Notes under the pieces: model-generated
Seen by the model: only the letters and a program-made list of their open reading frames with translations
Database searches by the model: none
What the model was told of the DNA's origin: nothing
Program-made: the position numbers and the translations under genes
DNA from: Magnetococcales bacterium
GTDB lineage: Bacteria; Pseudomonadota; Magnetococcia; Magnetococcales; Magnetaquicoccaceae
NCBI GenBank assembly: GCA_015231755.1
Contig: JADGAZ010000024.1
Coordinates: forward strand, 1-64,000
Length of the DNA: 64,000 bases
Direction of reading: 5' to 3'
Part shown: positions 29,950 to 43,454 of the stretch, in pieces
How positions within the stretch are numbered: the first letter of the stretch is position 1
Layout of the letters: every line of letters begins with the position of its first letter

Positions 29950-30095
29950 GGTCGCAGCTTTTTTTCGGTTCGGATCTATTTTTCTCTCAAGAGAAAGCGG
30001 CGCATGTTCGATAAATTGATCAGGGAATGTTTTCATTGACCGCAACGGTCAACGGGTGGGCCACCCCTTACAGCCCTCCCCGCCGAAGGAGGCGC

Positions 30096-30896
30096 ATGAT
30101 AATGATGATGATCGATTCAAACCGTGACGAAATCCTGGATGGAATCCTGGCCCGTTTGCAGGGCATATGGGCCTCCCCCATCGCGACGGAACGCTTCGAG
30201 TTCGAACTGAAGCGGTTGGAGCGGATCATCGGGGAACACCGCCGCCAAGAGCCGATCCGGGCCTTCTACCTGCTTGGCCTGATCGCCACGTTGCAAGAAA
30301 AGTCCGATGTGATGCGGGGACATTTCAAGAATGCCCTATGGCACAGCGGCAACGATCCGGATGTACGGCACGGATACGGGGCCTGTCTGGCGCGCCTGGG
30401 TCTGTTTTTCGAGGCCCGGGAACAATACCGGCTCTTGTACGAAGACAATCCCGACGATCTGGATCTGTTGGCCGAGTTGATCGTCACCACCCTGGCCACG
30501 GGACGCATTCAAGAAGGGGTGCGCTGGATGGGGGAGTGGAGCCGCATCAACCCGACCCGCCCCATCGAAGAGGCGGACTCCATCGCCAAAAGCGGCGCCC
30601 TGCTGGAACGTTTCGGCGTGTCGGACGATGACCTGGAACGGCTGCAACGGCTGGCCCTGGGCATCCTGGAACGGGAACGCAAGGATGTGAAGACCATCAA
30701 TTTCACCGGCATTCCGCCGGATGACCCCTGCTGGATCCAAGCCGATGTGGTGGTGGACGACACCGAAGAGGGTGTCGAACTGTTGAATCACAAATTGGCC
30801 GACGTGTGCAAAATCTCCGCACCTCCCCGTCTGGCGGAACTGGTGGTGTTCAACTACAGCAGTGGCGATGCCAAATCATCCACCGGCGCCTCCTGA
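30096..30896 (+). CDS. TPR-like helical protein of unknown function
   Basis: The 266-residue soluble protein is helical in its first 200 residues and has the spacing of tetratricopeptide-like repeats (AFYLLGLIATLQEKSDVMRG, then HGYGACLARLGLFFEAREQY, then LAELIVTTLATGRIQEGV). The C-terminal 60 residues form a mixed segment with VDDTEEGVELLNHKLADVC. No export signal is seen. GAAGGAGG precedes the ATG at 30096. The barrel-protein gene follows after 12 bases, so the two are probably one operon. I do not know a functional assignment. Confidence 0.65.
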   Translation: MIMMMIDSNRDEILDGILARLQGIWASPIATERFEFELKRLERIIGEHRRQEPIRAFYLLGLIATLQEKSDVMRGHFKNALWHSGNDPDVRHGYGACLARLGLFFEAREQYRLLYEDNPDDLDLLAELIVTTLATGRIQEGVRWMGEWSRINPTRPIEEADSIAKSGALLERFGVSDDDLERLQRLALGILERERKDVKTINFTGIPPDDPCWIQADVVVDDTEEGVELLNHKLADVCKISAPPRLAELVVFNYSSGDAKSSTGAS

Positions 30897-32413: not shown

Positions 32414-33526
32414 TCAACCGAAGGCGCTGACCGGCAGAATGATGTTGGCGGCCACGCAGCAGAGGCCCACCACGAAGAACATGATGCGATCCAATACAAA
32501 GGCCATGGCCTTGTCATCCTTTTTGACGAAAATATAATTCGAGATCAAGGAGAGGGCGATGGTCAGAAAGATGGTGGCCATGCCGAAGCCCGCCACATAG
32601 TCCACCAGCCCGAAGGAGCCGGAGGGGGGCAGGATGGAGTTGGCCACATACGAGTTGGCCACCGCGCCGAAGAAGGCCGCCGATGGCAGGGAAAAACGCG
32701 GTCCCACATCCGACGGCTTGACGAAAAAGTTGGAAAGCGCCAACGCCAGGGCCGCGAACAAGGAGATGAAGATCTTGGCATAGACCCCCATGCCGCTGCG
32801 CTGGATTTCGATCCCGACCACATACTGGGTAAAGGTTTTCTTATCGGTATCCCCCTTGCGCGGATCCCCATAGGAGGACTTGTAGGTATGGGGTTTGGAG
32901 GTATTGCTGTTCTTGATCAGATTGAAACCCGGAATCTTCACCCGGGAACTGATGTTGGAAGTCGGGTCCGCCACATAACGCAGTTTGGTCCCGTCCCGGG
33001 CGCCGTCTTCGATGAAGATGTTGAGCATGTGGTTTTCGATCGGCACCCGCATGGTATCGAAAAATTTCAAAAATTTCGCGGAAACCCGGAATTTCTGATA
33101 GTGGGTCTGATCACTGCCGTGATACTCCTCCAGCAGATCCTTCTTGACGATGGTGCCATCCACGATGACGAACTTGCTGCCCGGATCGATCTCTTTGGGT
33201 CCGTTCCAACTGAACCAGAGATAAAAATTGGCACTCCAGGAGGAGTCCTTGATCGACAGACTGTCGATGCTGTCCACATACGAGCCAATCTTGACCTTCA
33301 CATAATCCCCTTGTTCCGGCAAAGGATCCGGAGGGGTATGTCCGGGTTCCACCTTGGTGGGATCCATGCGCGTCAGATGGTGGGAACTCGCGTCGTTCTT
33401 GTTGACGGACAGCACCGATGCACTCAGATGAATCACGTAGGCATAGACCGCCAACGTGATGATCGCCACCAGCAAGACGAGGCTCTTCTTGCCCGACTCC
33501 AGTGCAGCCCAAGTCTGAAAAAACAT
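32414..33526 (-). CDS. Pentameric ligand-gated ion channel-like subunit with an N-terminal membrane anchor
   Basis: The 370-residue protein has an N-terminal membrane segment (about 14-38) and an extracytoplasmic beta-rich domain of about 200 residues. The domain carries Cys-loop-receptor features: GSYVDSIDSLSIKDSSWSAN leading to FYLWFSWNGP, and a Pro-loop-like MRVPIENHMLNIFIED. Four membrane segments end the protein (about 248-270, 280-300, 306-335 and 347-367). The order matches bacterial pentameric ligand-gated channels, but the putative M2 (SLPSAAFFGAVANSYVANS) is unusual and Gly/Ala/Ser-rich. AAGGAG precedes the ATG at 33526. It follows the binding-protein/channel fusion by 70 bases on the same strand, so the two may form one complex. 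Family assignment is by pattern, not search. Confidence 0.72.
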   Translation of the reverse strand: MFFQTWAALESGKKSLVLLVAIITLAVYAYVIHLSASVLSVNKNDASSHHLTRMDPTKVEPGHTPPDPLPEQGDYVKVKIGSYVDSIDSLSIKDSSWSANFYLWFSWNGPKEIDPGSKFVIVDGTIVKKDLLEEYHGSDQTHYQKFRVSAKFLKFFDTMRVPIENHMLNIFIEDGARDGTKLRYVADPTSNISSRVKIPGFNLIKNSNTSKPHTYKSSYGDPRKGDTDKKTFTQYVVGIEIQRSGMGVYAKIFISLFAALALALSNFFVKPSDVGPRFSLPSAAFFGAVANSYVANSILPPSGSFGLVDYVAGFGMATIFLTIALSLISNYIFVKKDDKAMAFVLDRIMFFVVGLCCVAANIILPVSAFG

Positions 33527-33596
33527 GCCATTTTCTCCTTTTCGATTCAATGGTTGCCGGTCCAACCGGACTTCCGGCAACCCCGCGGATGGTTTT

Positions 33597-35924
33597 TTAT
33601 TCGGCGAAATAGATTCCAAAGGCAGTCATGAGTCCATAGACAATCACGGAGACAAAATTGGCGCCGATGCTAAGTTTGCGATTCCACATTTTGGCTTGAT
33701 CCTTCTGACCTTCCGAAATCATTCTTTGCACGACGATGTTGGAGAAAATCATCGTCACCACAAAGGCGTAGGCCAGCAGGAAGTAGTAATCGGCAAACAT
33801 CGTATAGCCCACCTTCGGGAAGGTGTTCTTCTGCGACATGTGATACACCAGAATACCCACCAAACCGGAAAGGGACGCATTGATCCGGGGGGCGAACTGA
33901 TCCACAGGCACCCACAGGATCAACAGATTGATCCCCAGGATAATCAGCAAAGGCAGGAAGAAGGTGTAGAGGTAGGGTTGCAGGATGCGCTTGATGTCAA
34001 TTTCAAGATTGACCGTCGAATAGTAGACCGGGCTTTTGTACCCCTTGAACAAACGGTAATCCGGATTCCCGAAGGTGGAGGCATAACGAAACAGATTGGA
34101 GAAGACTTCACGCCCTTGATAGTCCCACTCCTGTGGTTTGATATCCTTGATGGGCGTATCATCCATATGGCGCGAGTCCGGCACCAGCATGAGATGGGTT
34201 GAATTCTTGTTCATATGGCCGATACTCAAACGCAACGTCTGAGAATCAAAAGGAAAAGCGGCCAGATTGAACGGCGTGTTGAGGGTCAGGCGTTTGTTGT
34301 AGGAGCGAAATTTGGTCGCATGGGACAGATCCTCCATGAACAGGACGGATTTTTCATTGGAGGCGTTGATGGAAACAATTTTTTCAATATCCTGCACCGC
34401 CAATTGACTGGAGGTCCACTTGAACCACATGAACAGGTCCACATTCCACATCATATCCTTGATGTTGACATCGGTGATTCTGACGATATCCACCCCGACA
34501 AACACCACATCGACCAGATGATAGGGGACACGATCAAAAATCGCGACATAGCCTTTATGTATCCGCTCATCCAACTCCTTGAGGACATACTCCTCCCGGG
34601 GCTTGACAAGTTGCAAAGGCGCCACCTTGTAGCGGCCCTTCTCGATTTTTGAGACATAAATATCACGGGGGACACTGCGATTGCCTGTCACGCCTGCTTT
34701 CGCATCGGAGGTCGCATGCGGCATGGGTTTGTCAGCCAGCTTGGATCCCGCCGCCTCTCCTGTTTCCTGGGCTCCTTCCGGGCGCTTGCTGGTTTTTGCC
34801 AGGTACTGGTCAACATACTCCTTTGTTTTGTCATGCTTGTTCTTGAAATAAAGCATGCCGGTAACGCCGTTGATGGCATCCTGCCAATCAATATTGCTCA
34901 GAAATTCCCGAACGCTGGCACGACTGACCGCCTTCCCGGAATCCGGCTTTTCCAACCCTTCGATGGTTTTGGAAAGCAACAGGAGCGAGTCCCAGGTCAT
35001 GGCCGCCGCGAACGTGGGTTTCTTGTGATATTTCTTCTCGTAATCCCTGGCGAACATCGAAGCGCTTTCGTTGGCGATGTCCCACAAAAAGGGCGAGGTC
35101 ACATACACGCCATCCGTGTATTCTTCCGACATTTCGAGGAATTTGTCATTGGTCCAGTTGGCTGTCGCCACCACCGGCTGCTTGATGCCCTGCTCACGCA
35201 ACTGCGGCAGGACCACCAACCCGGTCTCGGAACGGGCCAGCACGACCACCGCGCCAAATTGTTTATTCATGGCGGCATCGGACAAATTCTTGGCTGCCCA
35301 ATCCTTGTCACTCAACTCCCGTTCGGCAGGAACGATTTTGGTGACGGTCAAGTTGATGTGGGCCGCTTTGTCCATAAAGGCCTTTTTCAGATTCAATCCC
35401 ATGTGACCCGTATTGTGGACCAACAGGATGTTATCTTTTTTCAGGACTTCCTTGGTATAGACCGCCAGAAAAGCCCCCTGTTCCTCTTCCGTCACATTCA
35501 GGGCGAATGCCGACTGATTGGCCTCCAACAGCTCTTCACCCGTCACATAGGGGGAAAGAAAAGGGATCTTGGCGGCGTTGAAGACTTTCGCGGTCGCCAA
35601 GGCCGTGGCCGGATAGTAGTGCCCCATGACGGCAAGCAGGGCCTCATCCTTGACCAACTCATTGGCAACGGCTGTGGCCTTTTCAGGATCATCGAAATCA
35701 TCCCGGACCAACAGTTCCAGTTTGTCGCCATCCCGCCCAGAAGATTGATTGTATTGCTCCACAAACAACTCCGCCGCACGCTGGATCGGAATCCCTTTTT
35801 CCGCGCTGTGACCAGTCAACGGGGCCAACACACCAATCTTGAACGTCTTGGCCATTGCGGTGCCGCCGGGAAACATCACCACCACCATGACCAATGGCAG
35901 CAACCATTTCAACAATTTATTCAT
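33597..35924 (-). CDS. Periplasmic-binding-protein domain fused to a pentameric ligand-gated ion channel
   Basis: The 775-residue protein has a signal peptide (1-25, ending TAMA). Residues 27-375 form a branched-chain amino-acid-type binding domain (KIGVLAPLTGHSAEKGIP, AALVMGHYYP-like loop, VVLARSETGLVVLPQL, MTWDSLLLLSKTIEGL). After a hydrophilic linker (about 376-420), a Cys-loop-receptor extracellular domain follows, with VDIVRITDVNIKDMMWNVD leading to LFMWFKW and the Pro-loop FNLAAFPFDSQTLRLSI at about 552-568. Membrane segments M1-M4 lie at about 647-672, 677-696, 705-732 and 750-773; M2 is FAPRINASLSGLVGILVYH. The Cys pair of animal receptors is absent, as usual in bacteria. It would place a solute-sensing module on top of a pentameric channel in the inner membrane. 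Confidence 0.88.
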   Translation of the reverse strand: MNKLLKWLLPLVMVVVMFPGGTAMAKTFKIGVLAPLTGHSAEKGIPIQRAAELFVEQYNQSSGRDGDKLELLVRDDFDDPEKATAVANELVKDEALLAVMGHYYPATALATAKVFNAAKIPFLSPYVTGEELLEANQSAFALNVTEEEQGAFLAVYTKEVLKKDNILLVHNTGHMGLNLKKAFMDKAAHINLTVTKIVPAERELSDKDWAAKNLSDAAMNKQFGAVVVLARSETGLVVLPQLREQGIKQPVVATANWTNDKFLEMSEEYTDGVYVTSPFLWDIANESASMFARDYEKKYHKKPTFAAAMTWDSLLLLSKTIEGLEKPDSGKAVSRASVREFLSNIDWQDAINGVTGMLYFKNKHDKTKEYVDQYLAKTSKRPEGAQETGEAAGSKLADKPMPHATSDAKAGVTGNRSVPRDIYVSKIEKGRYKVAPLQLVKPREEYVLKELDERIHKGYVAIFDRVPYHLVDVVFVGVDIVRITDVNIKDMMWNVDLFMWFKWTSSQLAVQDIEKIVSINASNEKSVLFMEDLSHATKFRSYNKRLTLNTPFNLAAFPFDSQTLRLSIGHMNKNSTHLMLVPDSRHMDDTPIKDIKPQEWDYQGREVFSNLFRYASTFGNPDYRLFKGYKSPVYYSTVNLEIDIKRILQPYLYTFFLPLLIILGINLLILWVPVDQFAPRINASLSGLVGILVYHMSQKNTFPKVGYTMFADYYFLLAYAFVVTMIFSNIVVQRMISEGQKDQAKMWNRKLSIGANFVSVIVYGLMTAFGIYFAE

Positions 35925-36156: not shown

Positions 36157-38697
36157 TCAACGGGCCATGGTGAAATAAAAGGTGCTGCCCTTTCCCACTT
36201 CGGACTCCACCCAGACCTCTCCTCCGTGACGCTCGGCGATCCGTTTGCAGATGGCCAAGCCGATACCGGTACCCGGATGGGTACTTCGGGTATGCAGCCT
36301 TTGGAAGATCACGAAAATACGCTCCTGATGACGCTCCTCGATGCCGATGCCGTTGTCCCGCACCGAAAAACGCCAGAAGGATTCCAACGCCTCCACCCCG
36401 ATATGCACCCGAGGCGCCTCTTCGCCGTGAAACTTGAGGGCATTGGCAATCAGGTTTTGGAACATGCGCACCAACAGGAACGAATCCCCCAACAATTCGG
36501 GCAAGGGCTCCCGGGTGATCACCGCGCCGGACTGGGTGATGGACGTAGCCAGATTGCGCAACACCTGATCCACCACCCGTTCCACCGAGATCAGCGTCAG
36601 GGGGGCGCCGTGGGTGTTGACCCGGGAAAAACTCAACAAGGCTTCGATCAACTCCTGCATGTGGCGGGTGCCATCGACCATGTAATCGATGAACTGATCG
36701 GCTTTTTCGTCCAACTGGCCCCGATAGCGCCGGGAAAGCAGTTGCGCGAAGCCGCTCACCTGCCGCAACGGCTCTTGTAGATCGTGGGAAGCCACATGGG
36801 CGAACTGCTGCAAATCCCGGTTGGAACGCTCCAGTTCCAAGGTGCGCTCCGCCACCCGTTTTTCCAGAAAGACGTTGAGCTGCCGTAATTCCTCTTCCAT
36901 GCGCTTGCGCTCGGTGATCTCCGTGGCAATGGCGCACACCGCCGTGGTCAGGCCCCGAGGATCGATCAGAGGGAATTTCACCACGATGTAGGTGCGCACC
37001 CCATCGGGATGGATCCAGTTCTCCTCCACTTCGCAAGGCCCCTCCCCCAGAGCCTGGGCGTCGCTGACACGGGCGCGCTCCGCCATTTCCACCGGAAAGA
37101 GATCCTCGTCCATCCGCCCCAGACACGCCGCCTCCCGCACCCCGAACAACTCTTCAAAACGCCGGTTGATCAGCAGATACCGACCCCGGGGATCCTTGAG
37201 GGTGATCACGGTGCGGGAGTGGTCCAAAATCCCCTGCAAACGGCTCTGACTGGCGGTGAGGGACTCCATGGCCCAGCGCAACGCCTGTTCGGCGTGATGG
37301 CGTTCGGTCACGTCCCGGAAGATCCCCTGGATCACCCGCCGTCCCCCCAGACGGATCACCCCGGCATTGATCTCCACCGGAATCCGTTCCCCGATACGGT
37401 TCACCACCTGGACATTGGCGACAAAACCGCCGCCGCTTTCCACCTGACTGCGGAAAGTCTCCTGATAGCGCGCCCGATCCTCGGGGGGATGCAGCCGGCT
37501 TTGGTGCATGCCGACGATCTCGGCCATCGGCATTTTCAACAGAGTTTCCGCCTGTCGGTTGGCATCGAGGATCAGACCGGTGTCCGCGTCGGCCACGATG
37601 ATGGCATCCCGGGCCGACTCCATCAGCAGACGGAACTTCTCTTCGGAACGGGTAAGCCGTTCCGCGGCGCGCCGGGCCTCGGTCACATCCCGGGCCAGCA
37701 GCAGATGTCCCACCGGACGCCGCTCCCGATCCAGAATCAAGGAGACACGCACCTCCAGAATCCGTCCCCCATGGGCCAAGGGATCATGGGACTCGAACTG
37801 TTCGTGACCCACCCGGCCCACCCGGGTCAAACCGGCCTCCAGTTGTTCCCGGCTCACCCCCAGACGGTCATGGAGATCCCACACCCGACGGCCCACCACC
37901 TCATCCACCCGCAAGTGGAACAACCGTTCCGCCGCCGGATTGAAAATCCGTACCACCAGCGCCTCATCCGTGGCCACGATCGCCAGATCCGACGCCGTGA
38001 ACACCAAATTTTCCAGCATGGTGGCCTGTTCCTGGAACGCATTCTGGCTGTGTCGCCGCGCCTGCTCCGCAATCCGCAAACGACCGCTCATGCGCCACGC
38101 CAGCCAACCCCCGATGCCGAACAGGCCCGCAATCAGTCCCAAACCCACCCAGGTCACCCAGCGCAACTGCTGATCGGCCTGCTGGCGCAGTTCGATGGCC
38201 TTGTTATTGGCAAAAAACAAAATCGTGTCGCTGGTTTCAACCATCCGCTGAAATCGTCTGTCAGTTTCCAAACGCATGACTTGGAGAGCCGTCTCCACCC
38301 CCCGATCCCGCCGGGCCACCAGGATGTCGCGATTCAACGCGATCCAGCCCGTCAAGGCCTCCCCGAAAGCCCGCACCTGGGCCGGATCCCCCAGATAACG
38401 CTCCTGAACCTGATGCCAATCCTCCCGCGCCTTCTGCTCCTGCCCTTCCAGACGCGTGGAGAGCCGCTCCCAATCCATCTCCTGCTCCTGCAACGACTCC
38501 ATCACCCCCAGACGCATGGCCGCCGCCTGCTCCCGAACCCGCAAGACAGCATTGGAAACGGCGAAAGGATGATGATGGATCTGCTCCGTCAATCCCGACA
38601 ACCGCTGCATGCGATCCAACACCAACCCGCCGACACCGATCACCCCGACAACAAACACCACCAATCCCATCGCGGCACGCCTGGCGTTGATTTCCAT
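36157..38697 (-). CDS. Membrane-bound multi-PAS histidine kinase
   Basis: The 846-residue protein has two membrane segments (about 9-28 and 178-198) enclosing a helical periplasmic domain of about 150 residues. At least three PAS domains follow (around 225-345, 350-465 and 475-600; for example RRVWDLHDRLG, DAIIVADADTGLILDANRQA and TVITLKDPRGRYLLINRR). The kinase core carries its His in LQQFAHVASHDLQEPLRQVS, the subtype found in phytochrome-like kinases, and an ATPase domain with ANALKFHGEE, DNGIGIEERHQ and GTGIGLAICKRI. No receiver is attached. It is six bases after the hybrid kinase gene on the same strand, so the two are likely one operon. Confidence 0.9.
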   Translation of the reverse strand: MEINARRAAMGLVVFVVGVIGVGGLVLDRMQRLSGLTEQIHHHPFAVSNAVLRVREQAAAMRLGVMESLQEQEMDWERLSTRLEGQEQKAREDWHQVQERYLGDPAQVRAFGEALTGWIALNRDILVARRDRGVETALQVMRLETDRRFQRMVETSDTILFFANNKAIELRQQADQQLRWVTWVGLGLIAGLFGIGGWLAWRMSGRLRIAEQARRHSQNAFQEQATMLENLVFTASDLAIVATDEALVVRIFNPAAERLFHLRVDEVVGRRVWDLHDRLGVSREQLEAGLTRVGRVGHEQFESHDPLAHGGRILEVRVSLILDRERRPVGHLLLARDVTEARRAAERLTRSEEKFRLLMESARDAIIVADADTGLILDANRQAETLLKMPMAEIVGMHQSRLHPPEDRARYQETFRSQVESGGGFVANVQVVNRIGERIPVEINAGVIRLGGRRVIQGIFRDVTERHHAEQALRWAMESLTASQSRLQGILDHSRTVITLKDPRGRYLLINRRFEELFGVREAACLGRMDEDLFPVEMAERARVSDAQALGEGPCEVEENWIHPDGVRTYIVVKFPLIDPRGLTTAVCAIATEITERKRMEEELRQLNVFLEKRVAERTLELERSNRDLQQFAHVASHDLQEPLRQVSGFAQLLSRRYRGQLDEKADQFIDYMVDGTRHMQELIEALLSFSRVNTHGAPLTLISVERVVDQVLRNLATSITQSGAVITREPLPELLGDSFLLVRMFQNLIANALKFHGEEAPRVHIGVEALESFWRFSVRDNGIGIEERHQERIFVIFQRLHTRSTHPGTGIGLAICKRIAERHGGEVWVESEVGKGSTFYFTMAR

Positions 38698-38703
38698 ATC
38701 CGT

Positions 38704-41700
38704 TCAGACTCTCCCCTCCGATTCCGTCACGCCGAGCCGTTCGGCCAGTTTCTCCAGCGCCTTGAGGGCACCTTCAAAGTCATACCGGTCCATGCACTCC
38801 CCGACGGCAGGCAACCACTCCCGACACTCCCCGTTCCCGGCACTCAACACCGTTTCCAACCCCTTCAGACAACGCTCCGCATCCAGATCGTTGTGACTCA
38901 ACCGTTCCCGCAACGCCTCGATCCACTCCGGAATCGTCCCCTCCGGCCCCTCGGCCCCCGCTGACAAGGGATCGACAGATTCCGTCTCCGGCTCCAGCAC
39001 CTCGGGCAAGGCAGCCACAGACCGGCACAACCGTGCGCAAGCCGCCTCGAAATAACCCAACGCCTCTTCCGAGGGGATCTCCCCGGCATGGATGGTCTCT
39101 TCCATCTCCCCCGCCAGCCCCCGGATCAAACGCGCTCCCAGATTGCCGGCCATACCCTTGACGCCATGCAGCAACGCCCCGGCCTCCACCAACGCGGCAG
39201 GCCCGGATCCGGCCAGCAGGGTGCGCAACTGCGTGGTGACATCCCCATGGTCCCGGCAAAACGATTCCAGCAGCCGACGCAATACCAGACGCTTGCCCCC
39301 CAGACGTTCCAAAGCCTCCTCCAGATCCACCCCCTCCACCCCATCGGGGGGAAAGGGATCGACTCCGACCGGTGCCGCCATACCCGAAGTCGCCACCTCC
39401 CCGGCAAAAACCGGTCCGGTCCGGGGGGAGAGCCACCGGGCCAACACCACACCCAACGCCCGACGCTCGATAGGCTTGGCGAGATAATCGTTCATCCCCG
39501 CATCCAGGCAACGCTCCCGGTCTCCGGGCATGGCCTGGGCGGTCATGGCCACAATCGGCAACGTGGCGCAATCAGGCATCGAACGGATGCGACGGGTGGC
39601 GGTCAAACCATCCATCACCGGCATCTGCAGATCCATCAACACCCCGTCGAACGCCTCCCGCGCCACCCGCTCCACCGCTTCCACCCCGTTGCCGGCGATC
39701 TCCACCTTCAGGCCAAAATCCGCCAGGATCTCCCGGGCCACCATCTGGTTGAGCAGGTTGTCCTCCACCAAAAGCAAACGGACTCCGGCAAAAAAAGGAT
39801 CGCACACCCGCTCCCCACCGGAGGACTCCAGCACCGGTCCGTCCTGGGAGTTGCAGGCCTCTTCCTCCCCGACACGCCCACTCCCCAACAGCTCGACTTG
39901 CAAAGACTTCGGCAGAATCGGCCTGTCCAGCCACGCATCCACCTCCACCGGTTTCCGCTCCTCCTCCGGATCCAGCGGCACAGGCGCCACAATCCGCACC
40001 CCGGAAAACACCCCCCGCAACGCCCCGCACACCCGAATCCGCTCCCCCTGCTCCACATCCAGAATCACCCGGGCGCACGGCTGACTGCCAAACGACTCCA
40101 GCGCCGCTTCCGACGTGGCGAACACCCGCACCGCCATGCCCAGTTCCGTGGTCATCCGGGCCAGGAACCGTCGAGCGGTCATGCGTTCGGAGAGAATCAA
40201 CACCTCCACATCCGTCAACGCCGCCCCCCTGTGACCCCATTCCCCCACCGCCGGATCACGGGCCAACGACAATTCGCAAATGAACTCGCTGCCCACCCCC
40301 GGGGCGCTCACCACCCGAATGCCTCCCCCCATCCGTTCCACCAGCCGCTTGCTGATGGCCAACCCCAGACCGGTCCCGCCGTATTGACGGGTGATGGAAC
40401 CATCCGCCTGGGAAAAGGGCCGAAACAGACGGGCACACTGCTCCTGGGTCATGCCGATGCCGGTATCCCGCACGGAAAAACGCATCTGAACCGCCGTGCG
40501 CTCCTCCCGGACCACCGACACCCCCAGAATCACCTCGCCGCCCCGATGGGTAAACTTGACCGCATTGCCCAACAGGTTGATCAGAATCTGGGCCAGCCGC
40601 AGCGGATCCCCCCGCAATCCCGCCGGAAAGGCGAACGGGCGATCCAGCCACCATTCCAGCCGCTTTTCCATCATGGAGACGTTAATCAGATCGATCACCC
40701 GCTGCAGCACATCGTCCACCGACAAGGGAATGGCGTCCAGGGTCAAACCACCCGCCTCGATCCGGGAGTAGTCGAGAATATCGTTGATGATCCCCAACAA
40801 CTGCCGGGAGGCCCCTTCCATCCGGACCAGATAGTCCCGCTGTTTGGCATCCAGCGCGGTCTGACGCACCAGATCCCCCAATCCGATGATGGCGTTCAAG
40901 GGGGTACGGATCTCATGGCTCATGCGGGCCAGAAACTCCCCTTTCACCCGATCCCGCTCCAACTGTTCGCTTTGCTGCCGGATCCGCTCTCGGGAAAGAC
41001 GCAGATCCTCCACCATGACATTGAAACTCTCCGCCAGAAAAACAAATTCCCGCACCCATCCCAGATCGATGGAGGTATCCAGCGATCCGGCCCCCACATC
41101 CCGGACCGCCCCCGACAGCTTGACCAGTGGATCGAAGACAATCCGTTTCAAAGCGGCTTGCACCAGCAGCAACACCAGCAGGGCGCTCACCAGCATCACC
41201 GCCGCCACGGCCCACCCCATGGGACGGGCCGTGGCGGCAAACTCCTCGGCCCGGGTCACCGCGAACAGACGCAATCCCTGGGGCAAACGAATGCCCATCA
41301 CCAAAGCCTCCCCCCCGGACCACTCCACCCGCAGCGGTTCCACCCCCGGCTCCTCCTCCTGCGATCCCGCCGCCAGCCGGGTCCAAAGCGCCGGAGCGAG
41401 CAGACCAAAAGGCAAATCCGCCCAACCGGGGGCGAACACCACCTCTCCCGTCTCGTTGGTGACCAACAGGAATCCCCCCGCGCCAATCCGGGTCGAATGG
41501 ATCCGGTCGTGCAGAAAATCGGGCCGCGTGGTGATGGCCACTCCTCCCCGCCAGGTTTCCGGCTCGGTGGGATCCTGGCTCGCGCCGCGCCCAAACACCT
41601 TCCGGGCCACCAGAAAGGCCCATTCCCCGTTATCCGGATTGCGGAACAACTCCATGAACACAGACTGCCGATTGACCGCCGCAAACCGGTTGAACCAGGG

Positions 41701-42150
41701 GGTATTGCCTTCATGTTCCGCCCGGTTGGGCAGACCGACCACCGCGTGGCGGGCCTCTTCGGTACCATCGGGCAACAACACGCGCATTTCGTAATAATCG
41801 GGATAAACCTTGGCGTAACTGGCGAACAGATTGAGCAAAGGCAGTTGCAAAATGCCGTAGCGGCTTTCTTCATCTTCGGTGGCGAGATAGTCTTTCAACA
41901 ACGGATTGCCGGCGAACAACGCCACATTGGCCCCGACCGTGGCCAAACGGGCCGACACCTCCCCACGGGTATCGCGCAACAGTTGTCGCACCGTATTGAA
42001 GGCGTGCTGGGTGGCGGTACGGGTCACCTGTTCTGCGGCGATCCACCCCACGGTCAGCAACGGTACGCTCACCAGGGGCAGCAACACCAGAATCAGATAA
42101 CTGCGCAGGGCCAACCCGTTCGGAAACAAACGTCTCCACAGGAGGACCAT
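38704..42150 (-). CDS. Hybrid histidine kinase with periplasmic sensor, HAMP, two receivers and HPt
   Basis: The 1148-residue protein has membrane segments at about 16-37 and 315-340 with a Cache-like periplasmic domain between them. HAMP, coiled coil and HisKA follow (His in FLARMSHEIRTPLNAIIG), then an ATPase domain (LLGNAVKFTH, DTGIGMTQEQ, GGTGLGLAIS). A degenerate receiver comes next (about 665-760; no clear acidic pocket), then a full receiver (LLLVEDNLLNQMV, Asp in VLMDLQMPVMDG) and an HPt domain with His in LLHGVKGMAGNLGA at about residue 993. This is the BarA/EvgS-type phosphorelay layout. The terminal 100 residues are unassigned. AAAAGGTAAAG precedes the start. The solute-binding protein gene ends 46 bases upstream. 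Confidence 0.9.
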   Translation of the reverse strand: MVLLWRRLFPNGLALRSYLILVLLPLVSVPLLTVGWIAAEQVTRTATQHAFNTVRQLLRDTRGEVSARLATVGANVALFAGNPLLKDYLATEDEESRYGILQLPLLNLFASYAKVYPDYYEMRVLLPDGTEEARHAVVGLPNRAEHEGNTPWFNRFAAVNRQSVFMELFRNPDNGEWAFLVARKVFGRGASQDPTEPETWRGGVAITTRPDFLHDRIHSTRIGAGGFLLVTNETGEVVFAPGWADLPFGLLAPALWTRLAAGSQEEEPGVEPLRVEWSGGEALVMGIRLPQGLRLFAVTRAEEFAATARPMGWAVAAVMLVSALLVLLLVQAALKRIVFDPLVKLSGAVRDVGAGSLDTSIDLGWVREFVFLAESFNVMVEDLRLSRERIRQQSEQLERDRVKGEFLARMSHEIRTPLNAIIGLGDLVRQTALDAKQRDYLVRMEGASRQLLGIINDILDYSRIEAGGLTLDAIPLSVDDVLQRVIDLINVSMMEKRLEWWLDRPFAFPAGLRGDPLRLAQILINLLGNAVKFTHRGGEVILGVSVVREERTAVQMRFSVRDTGIGMTQEQCARLFRPFSQADGSITRQYGGTGLGLAISKRLVERMGGGIRVVSAPGVGSEFICELSLARDPAVGEWGHRGAALTDVEVLILSERMTARRFLARMTTELGMAVRVFATSEAALESFGSQPCARVILDVEQGERIRVCGALRGVFSGVRIVAPVPLDPEEERKPVEVDAWLDRPILPKSLQVELLGSGRVGEEEACNSQDGPVLESSGGERVCDPFFAGVRLLLVEDNLLNQMVAREILADFGLKVEIAGNGVEAVERVAREAFDGVLMDLQMPVMDGLTATRRIRSMPDCATLPIVAMTAQAMPGDRERCLDAGMNDYLAKPIERRALGVVLARWLSPRTGPVFAGEVATSGMAAPVGVDPFPPDGVEGVDLEEALERLGGKRLVLRRLLESFCRDHGDVTTQLRTLLAGSGPAALVEAGALLHGVKGMAGNLGARLIRGLAGEMEETIHAGEIPSEEALGYFEAACARLCRSVAALPEVLEPETESVDPLSAGAEGPEGTIPEWIEALRERLSHNDLDAERCLKGLETVLSAGNGECREWLPAVGECMDRYDFEGALKALEKLAERLGVTESEGRV

Positions 42151-42196
42151 TCTTTACCTTTTTTCCCTTTGTTCTTTGACCTAAAAGGTCAAACCT

Positions 42197-43273
42197 TCAA
42201 TTGAGCAAAGCCCGCAGGATCTCCTTGTAGCGCCGGTCGATCCGGGGAGGAGGCTTGGCGACGAACTCGGAACGGGTCAACACCGTCTCTGGAGGATAAA
42301 TCACCGGATTGTTCCGGTGTTCGGGGCGCAACAACGGTTCGGCCTCCTGGTTGACGGTGGCAAAATGCAGATGCTGCGCCAACTGGGCCGCGTGGGCCGG
42401 TTCGTGGAGAAACTGAATCAAGGCGTAGGCGTCAGACTTGCGGGTCGAACCCGCCGCCACCACCAAACAATCCACCCACAAGACACTGCCTTCCTCCGGC
42501 ACGATGAATCCGATGCGATCATCCAGATCCTTCAGAGTCAAAGCGTCGCCGTTGAACACCGAAGCCAGCCACGCCTCGCCGGTCACCAACGCCGACTTGC
42601 TGTCAAACGATGGATAACCATAGGCACGCACGAAAGGTTTTTGCGCCATCAGCATGCGCCTAGCCTCCTCGATGGCCGACTCCTCGTAATGATTCCAGGA
42701 GTGTCCCATGGCCTTCATGGCCATGCCCATCAAATCCACGGACTCTTTTTCCAAGATGATGCGCTTACGAAAGCGTTCCTCGGGCTGCATCAACCCTTTC
42801 CAGGTGGTGGGGGGATCCGGAACCAGATCCTGCCGATAGGCGATGCCGAACGTGCCCCACAACACCGGCGCGGCAAACCCTCGCACACCGGGATACGAGT
42901 CGAGCCAACGGGACGGGACATGTTGCAGATGCCCGACCTCTGCGGGTCCAAGGGGCGCGAGCCAGTTTTTCTTCACATAACCTTGCACCCGCTCGCCACT
43001 GACCACGAACAGATCGAATCCCTTGCCCTGGGTACGGGCGAGGAGTTCGTCACGGGTCTCGTCGGTTTCAAACTCCACGGTGCGCAGATGGATGCCGGTC
43101 TGCTCCTCAAAACGCCGCGCCAGGGATGGATCCATGTAATTGGGCCAGTTGAGCAACACCAGTTCCCGTTTCTCCCCGGCGGACGACAGGCCCATCGATC
43201 CGGCCACCACCAGACACAGCAGCCCCACCATCCCGATCCATCGAACCCGCGCTCCCATGCCAGAACGTTTCAT
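42197..43273 (-). CDS. PotD/PotF-like periplasmic solute-binding protein
   Basis: The 358-residue protein has a signal peptide (hydrophobic residues about 12-28, AG-rich cleavage region). Its mature start ELVLLNWPNYMDPSLARRFEEQ-like sequence (first part ELVLLNWPNYMD) matches polyamine-binding proteins of the PotD group, as do GFDLFVVSGERV and [29 protein letters not shown] precedes the ATG at 43273. No permease or ATPase gene for a polyamine transporter is nearby. The gene is instead followed by two sensor kinases, so it may serve as a sensory binding protein handing the solute to the Cache-containing kinase. The ligand is not proven. Confidence 0.85.
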   Translation of the reverse strand: MKRSGMGARVRWIGMVGLLCLVVAGSMGLSSAGEKRELVLLNWPNYMDPSLARRFEEQTGIHLRTVEFETDETRDELLARTQGKGFDLFVVSGERVQGYVKKNWLAPLGPAEVGHLQHVPSRWLDSYPGVRGFAAPVLWGTFGIAYRQDLVPDPPTTWKGLMQPEERFRKRIILEKESVDLMGMAMKAMGHSWNHYEESAIEEARRMLMAQKPFVRAYGYPSFDSKSALVTGEAWLASVFNGDALTLKDLDDRIGFIVPEEGSVLWVDCLVVAAGSTRKSDAYALIQFLHEPAHAAQLAQHLHFATVNQEAEPLLRPEHRNNPVIYPPETVLTRSEFVAKPPPRIDRRYKEILRALLN

Positions 43274-43454
43274 TTCCCCCTCCCCATCGGACAGCGAACC
43301 GAACGACCGATCCCTCACGGTCCCGTGGCGCAACACCGATAAAGCCGTTTGCCGCCTTGCCTGCATTCGTGATACCCTAACAAAAGGGTTGCAAACCCGT
43401 CAATCGGTATCCACGACAGCGTGCATTTCTTGAGAAAATACGGCGAAAAAACGA

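Follow-up and report, generated by a model that had tools for sequence, protein, structure and literature searches.

An anchored short channel gene behind a channel fusion gene

We analysed a window of 64,000 nucleotides (the whole stretch of Magnetococcales DNA given above), centred on a 370-residue gene that we call P1. P1 follows P2, which encodes a fusion of a periplasmic-binding-protein (PBP) domain with a pentameric ligand-gated ion channel (pLGIC). The positions of these genes, their parts and their neighbours are collected in Table 1. The initial annotation had placed P1 directly after the fusion gene with a good ribosome-binding site, and both points were borne out. Because P1 and P2 lie on the same strand with a gap of 70 nt, in which a scan found no terminator, the two genes are probably co-transcribed in the window.

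Table 1 Features of the P1 locus and related proteins of the same genome
Feature	Position	Strand	Basis or remark
TPR-like gene, one edge of insertion site	30027..30896	+
442-aa ORF (GTG start), between TPR gene and P1	30909..32237	+	No Pfam match
P1, 370-aa short pLGIC subunit with N-terminal anchor	32414..33526	-	ATG at 33526, stop at 32414; ORF, homologs, ELIC profile, fold, dN/dS
P1 four-helix pore domain M1-M4, residues 246-369	32420..32791	-	AlphaFold2, fold match
P1 M2 pore helix, residues 279-298	32633..32692	-	AlphaFold2; alignment to ELIC
P1 periplasmic ligand-binding domain (Cys-loop/Pro-loop type), residues 70-243	32798..33319	-	Profile, AlphaFold2, fold, motifs
P1 N-terminal membrane anchor, about residues 15-36	33419..33484	-	Hydropathy, conservation, AlphaFold2 helix 11-54
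P1 ribosome-binding site AAGGAG	33535..33540	-	8 nt ahead of ATG
Hairpin in P2-P1 gap	33552..33582	-	No T-run behind, weak z-score -1.5; not a terminator
P2, Peripla_BP_6 + pLGIC fusion	33597..35924	-	G013 ortholog, 57%
PAS/histidine kinase, other edge of insertion site	36157..38697	-	Directly abuts TPR gene in G006/G003
PBP-ligand-domain-MscS protein, contig C27	L092:3866-6967	+	13 more aligned (L130-L142)
PBP-ligand-domain-MscS protein, contig C16	L093:2964-6053	-

Orthologs of P1 with 64-86% identity are encoded in the genomes G010, G008, G004, G007, G036 and G044 and in Paramagnetospirillum marisnigri SP-1, and the distribution within Magnetococcia is patchy (7 of 48 genomes). The dN/dS of P1 is 0.083 against the nearest ortholog, from G010, 0.096 against that of G008 and 0.190 against that of P. 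marisnigri, which indicates purifying selection. P1 is thus a real gene, as the orthologs in other genomes and the value of 0.083 show. Among viral contigs, no relative was found that would point to a phage origin. The G036 ortholog (L040:7159-8448) carries an insertion of about 59 residues in its ligand domain, rich in KETRE/DVKE repeats, which could be a product of repeat expansion or of the assembly.

P1 is a divergent subunit of the Cys-loop type

P1 is a divergent Cys-loop-type (pLGIC) subunit. Using a family profile from a 13-row alignment, we found that residues 69-354 match ELIC (the Erwinia ligand-gated ion channel; PDB 2vl0) with an E-value of 1.8e-17 and that residues 71-364 align with GLIC, the proton-gated channel from Gloeobacter. 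In hhalign a P1 profile matches the channel half of the fusion family over residues 77-355 (E 8.6e-31). The channel-like assignment of the initial annotation, for which a profile search against the Cys-loop families had been named as a check, therefore held. In Pfam, P1 matches only Neur_chan_memb (E 0.27) and stays under the curated cut-offs for Neur_chan_LBD and Neur_chan_memb. Since P2, a fusion of known type, is likewise under the Pfam cut-offs (LBD E 0.0022), these models are insensitive here and the miss is not decisive. The NCBIfam model LIC (TIGR00860) matches the single P1 protein with an E-value of 8.9e-5 at a score under NCBI's own cut-off. A phmmer search of PDB with P1 alone was set aside, its best E-value being 0.12 with unrelated nsp8 and photosystem entries at similar values.

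An AlphaFold2 model of P1 (pLDDT 78.3, pTM 0.71; least confident in the pore helix region, with pLDDT about 50 at 276-303) contains nine to ten strands followed by helices at 246-268, 279-298, 307-334 and 339-369. This agrees with the layout first read from the sequence, namely a hydrophobic segment at the N-terminus, then a beta-rich domain that includes FYLWFSW and RVPIENHMLNIFIED, then four helices at the C-terminus. The top Foldseek rows for the model are all pLGICs, with E-values of about 2e-16. By VIA-align, 285 residues superpose on GluCl with a Z-score of 21.4 and an rmsd of 2.9 Å, and Z is about 21 for GABA-A receptors and a GABA-A/GLIC chimera. The predicted fold is also that of GLIC (TM 0.73 by target length). 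Three marks of membership of the pLGIC superfamily were found in P1: homology over the full length of the extracellular domain and M1-M4, the beta-sandwich/four-helix fold, and the Pro-loop and pre-M1 residues described next.

Coupling residues and the pore helix

Bacterial pLGICs are already known (PMC549065; PMC4795631; PMC9897478; PMC12664993), and P1 carries the residue pair expected to couple the ligand domain to the pore, with P162 and E164 in the Pro-loop and R243 before M1. The Pro-loop proline, which is invariant in the superfamily (Jaiteh 2016, PMC4795631), and the pre-M1 arginine, a basic residue at this place being a criterion for pLGICs (Tasneem 2005, PMC549065), are present in all sequences compared; the acidic position holds E164 in the P1 clade and D in the other sequences. 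Aligned to ELIC, the M2 helix of P1 has S2', A6', F9', A13' and Y16'. With G or S at -2' and P at -1', the pore has no acidic ring. Glycine, alanine and serine fill 10 of its 23 positions, as compared with 7-10 of 23 in most related short channels. M2 is nearly invariant within the P1 clade and is the most conserved part of these proteins.

Like P1, ELIC has the Pro-loop proline and acid, the pre-M1 arginine, A13' and an aromatic residue at 16'. However, core identity between the two is 18%, the Pro-loop reads VPIENH in P1 and FPFDRQ in ELIC, position 9' is F in P1 and L in ELIC, P1 has no Glu at -1', and the N-terminal anchor and linker of P1 are not seen in ELIC. GLIC resembles P1 in fold and in its full-length profile match, whereas its pore residues differ and the anchor is found in P1. 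Small-residue M2 helices like that of P1 also occur in uncharacterised short pLGIC-type proteins of Azospirillum plasmids and of genomes G317 and G020; these and other short relatives share F9', with a small residue at position 13' and Tyr or Phe at 16'. The core identity of these proteins to P1 is 21-40%, and several begin with a short signal-like segment without the anchor plus linker.

An N-terminal anchor and linker mark a proposed subfamily

The N-terminal segment of P1 reaches a hydropathy of 2.54 over 19 residues and lies within the long helix predicted by AlphaFold2. An uncharged run of 17-26 residues behind basic residues is present in all eight P1-clade members and in G317, and a conserved charged linker (...H..RM.P..VE.GHTPPE.LP..G) follows the anchor in every member of the clade. 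The G317 relative, at 36% identity, keeps both the anchor and the linker pattern, in the form R(M/I)xPxxxExG(K/H)T. We infer that the helix is a retained signal anchor, in which case each subunit would have five membrane helices. DeCLIC (PMC9897478, PMC12664993) is likewise a prokaryotic pLGIC with extra sequence ahead of the ligand domain, but this consists of two beta-rich jelly-roll domains, in contrast to the membrane helix and short charged linker of P1.

The anchor and the M2 helix had both been described at the outset as unlike known bacterial channels. The anchor is indeed unusual; M2 is odd in comparison with ELIC and GLIC, yet it is of a kind common to the wider group of short proteobacterial channels. 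Because both features recur in relatives, they mark a subfamily rather than a unique oddity. Judging from sequence, we propose that the P1 clade together with G317 forms an N-terminally anchored pLGIC subfamily defined by the anchor and the charged linker. Our search of the open-access literature returned no description of an anchored F9'/Y16' subfamily, a weak negative.

A maximum-likelihood tree built on the core supports the P1 clade at 100/100 and its union with G317 and G020 at 100/98, with the fusions and ELIC across a 91/81 branch. Rooting was at the midpoint only, and the placement of ELIC, a long branch, is unsure. PBP-I + pLGIC fusions, known since 2005 from Magnetospirillum magnetotacticum and Bradyrhizobium japonicum (Tasneem et al. 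2005, PMC549065), have a channel half homologous to P1, whereas P1 has no PBP domain and occupies a separate branch. The origin of P1 by recent duplication of P2 is ruled out by their 18% identity in the core and their separate branches. The P1 ortholog of P. marisnigri, from an alphaproteobacterial genus (L034:8001-9113; 68% identical), nests within the Magnetococcia clade, and transfer between classes is therefore likely.

P1 and the fusion gene meet at a variable site

Upstream of the channel genes, the window holds a minus-strand cassette (36157-43366) of a PAS histidine kinase, a dCache hybrid kinase with receiver and Hpt domains, and a solute-binding protein. In G010 (L032) the solute-binding protein, hybrid kinase, kinase and P1 genes occur in the same order without the fusion, and P1 directly follows the histidine kinase that precedes the fusion in the window. 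In G008 the TPR gene adjoins P1 and the kinase is not there. In the sister genomes G006 and G003 the TPR gene is joined directly to the kinase gene, and both channel genes are missing from the site. The 442-residue ORF next to P1 has no counterpart at the equivalent sites of G006 and G008 and may belong to the same insertion; by eye, its product has the appearance of a secreted or outer-membrane beta-rich protein. The simplest reading is that P1 and P2, both of lower GC content than the neighbouring genes, are channel genes acquired separately at a variable site bounded by the TPR and kinase genes.

The initial annotation proposed that P1 may form heteromers with the fusion protein, and had named the absence of conserved linkage in relatives as counting against this. 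We examined eight P1 loci, at all of which the upstream (fusion) side is readable, although the contigs of G010, G007 and P. marisnigri end within the flanks. The fusion lies beside P1 in the window and at none of the other seven. G036, a 100% complete genome, has P1 and no PBP-pLGIC fusion. Conversely, the closest ortholog of P2, in G013 (96% complete), has no P1 in the 165 nt downstream or elsewhere in the genome. In G317, which is 100% complete and in one contig, the anchored relative is the only match. By the yardstick of the initial annotation itself, the partnership is thus not supported.

A heteropentamer in which P2 brings the PBP sensor and P1 fills the remaining positions is accordingly improbable, although the shared strand and short gap without a terminator, and the matching core length of two pLGIC subunits, are what such a pair would show. 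The P1 ortholog of G004 (L037:1240-2358, +) also adjoins a second short pLGIC gene (L037:2362-3375, -), lying tail to tail with it at 3 nt, and this neighbour belongs to a different branch from P1. With one to three such genes assumed per genome, we estimate that pLGIC neighbours at two of the eight P1 loci exceed chance; the channel genes could conceivably be paired in function or move together. The deep divergence of P1 and P2 and their unlike M2 rings (F9'/Y16' in P1, V9'/M16' in P2) argue further against co-assembly. That the window encodes a natural bacterial heteropentamer with the sensor on some subunits only, and G004 an independent second pairing, is slightly less probable still. No report of a natural heteromeric bacterial pLGIC was found in the open-access literature (again a weak negative).

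Just as improbable as the P1-P2 heteropentamer is that P1 is a non-conducting, anchored ligand sensor of the Cys-loop type that modulates, for example, P2 or the neighbouring histidine kinase. The conserved extra anchor and linker, the position of P1 directly after the kinase gene in G010 and the absence of an acidic residue at -1'/-2' of M2 are consistent with such a regulator. However, the strongest conservation in the clade falls on M2, as expected of a pore, and the kinase is not beside P1 in G008, G004, G044, G036 or P. marisnigri. Least probable of all is that P1 is a decaying or passenger gene without a current role in a variable island: its patchy occurrence, its variable insertion site and its lowered GC content (0.545, with 0.516 in P2 and about 0.61 in neighbouring genes) fit this, but dN/dS of 0.08-0.19 across orthologs, intact frames and a near-invariant pore speak against it.

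A Cys-loop-type ligand domain on MscS pores

The genome of the window and many other Magnetococcia also encode proteins of about 1000 residues that combine Peripla_BP_6, a Cys-loop-type ligand domain and an MscS channel. In the C16 protein, Pfam detects PBP_6 (E 9.7e-37) and MS_channel_2nd (E 6.5e-18), and in hhalign the middle domain aligns over 185 columns with the ligand domain found in the PBP-pLGIC fusions (E 2.4e-25). In Foldseek, a model of modest quality (pLDDT 61.5, pTM 0.35) has MscS chains as its leading matches (best E 6.5e-13), followed by GLIC (E 8.4e-10). VIA-align places GABA-A ligand domains at model residues of about 31-214 (Z about 12) and MscS or MscK at about 253-541 (Z about 13-14); since the rmsd is large for full-length rows, we use this as supporting evidence only. 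The Pro-loop motif is altered in these proteins (RPFG / RNYG). Across 299 sampled genomes of the phylum, Magnetococcia alone gave matches that cover ligand domain and pore together; outside this class the matches are to the MscS part or the ligand part only. These results suggest that one sensor module has been grafted onto two unrelated pore types. We found no report of a PBP/ligand-domain/MscS fusion in the open-access literature, which is only weak negative evidence. The MscS fusion is more striking than P1 and merits its own study.

Model for P1 and implications

P1 is, with good probability, a stand-alone pentameric ligand-gated ion channel of the inner membrane. It likely works alone because its placement beside a second channel gene is peculiar to the window genome, and it is most likely a homopentamer gated by some periplasmic ligand. 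Five identical subunits would assemble in the inner membrane, and a small periplasmic solute would bind between their extracellular domains. Movement would then pass via P162 and E164 of the Pro-loop and R243 before M1 to M2, which would open a pore otherwise closed by the aromatic rings F9' and Y16'. Channels of this kind are supposed to act on signalling or motility through their ion flux, and P1 may do the same. Stand-alone solute-binding protein genes lie near several short channels (in G004, G020 and an Azospirillum plasmid, and at 42197-43366 in the window), in line with the proposal by Tasneem et al. 2005 (PMC549065) of a chemotaxis-receptor role for bacterial pLGICs.

A P1-P2 heteromer, if it existed, would give bacteria a rare equivalent of the mixed animal receptors; the comparative evidence argues against it. 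Bacterial pLGICs serve as models of nerve receptors, and little is known of what most of them do in nature. The P1 clade, with its putatively retained anchor and its aromatic rings at 9' and 16', would offer a new test case for how such channels gate and assemble.
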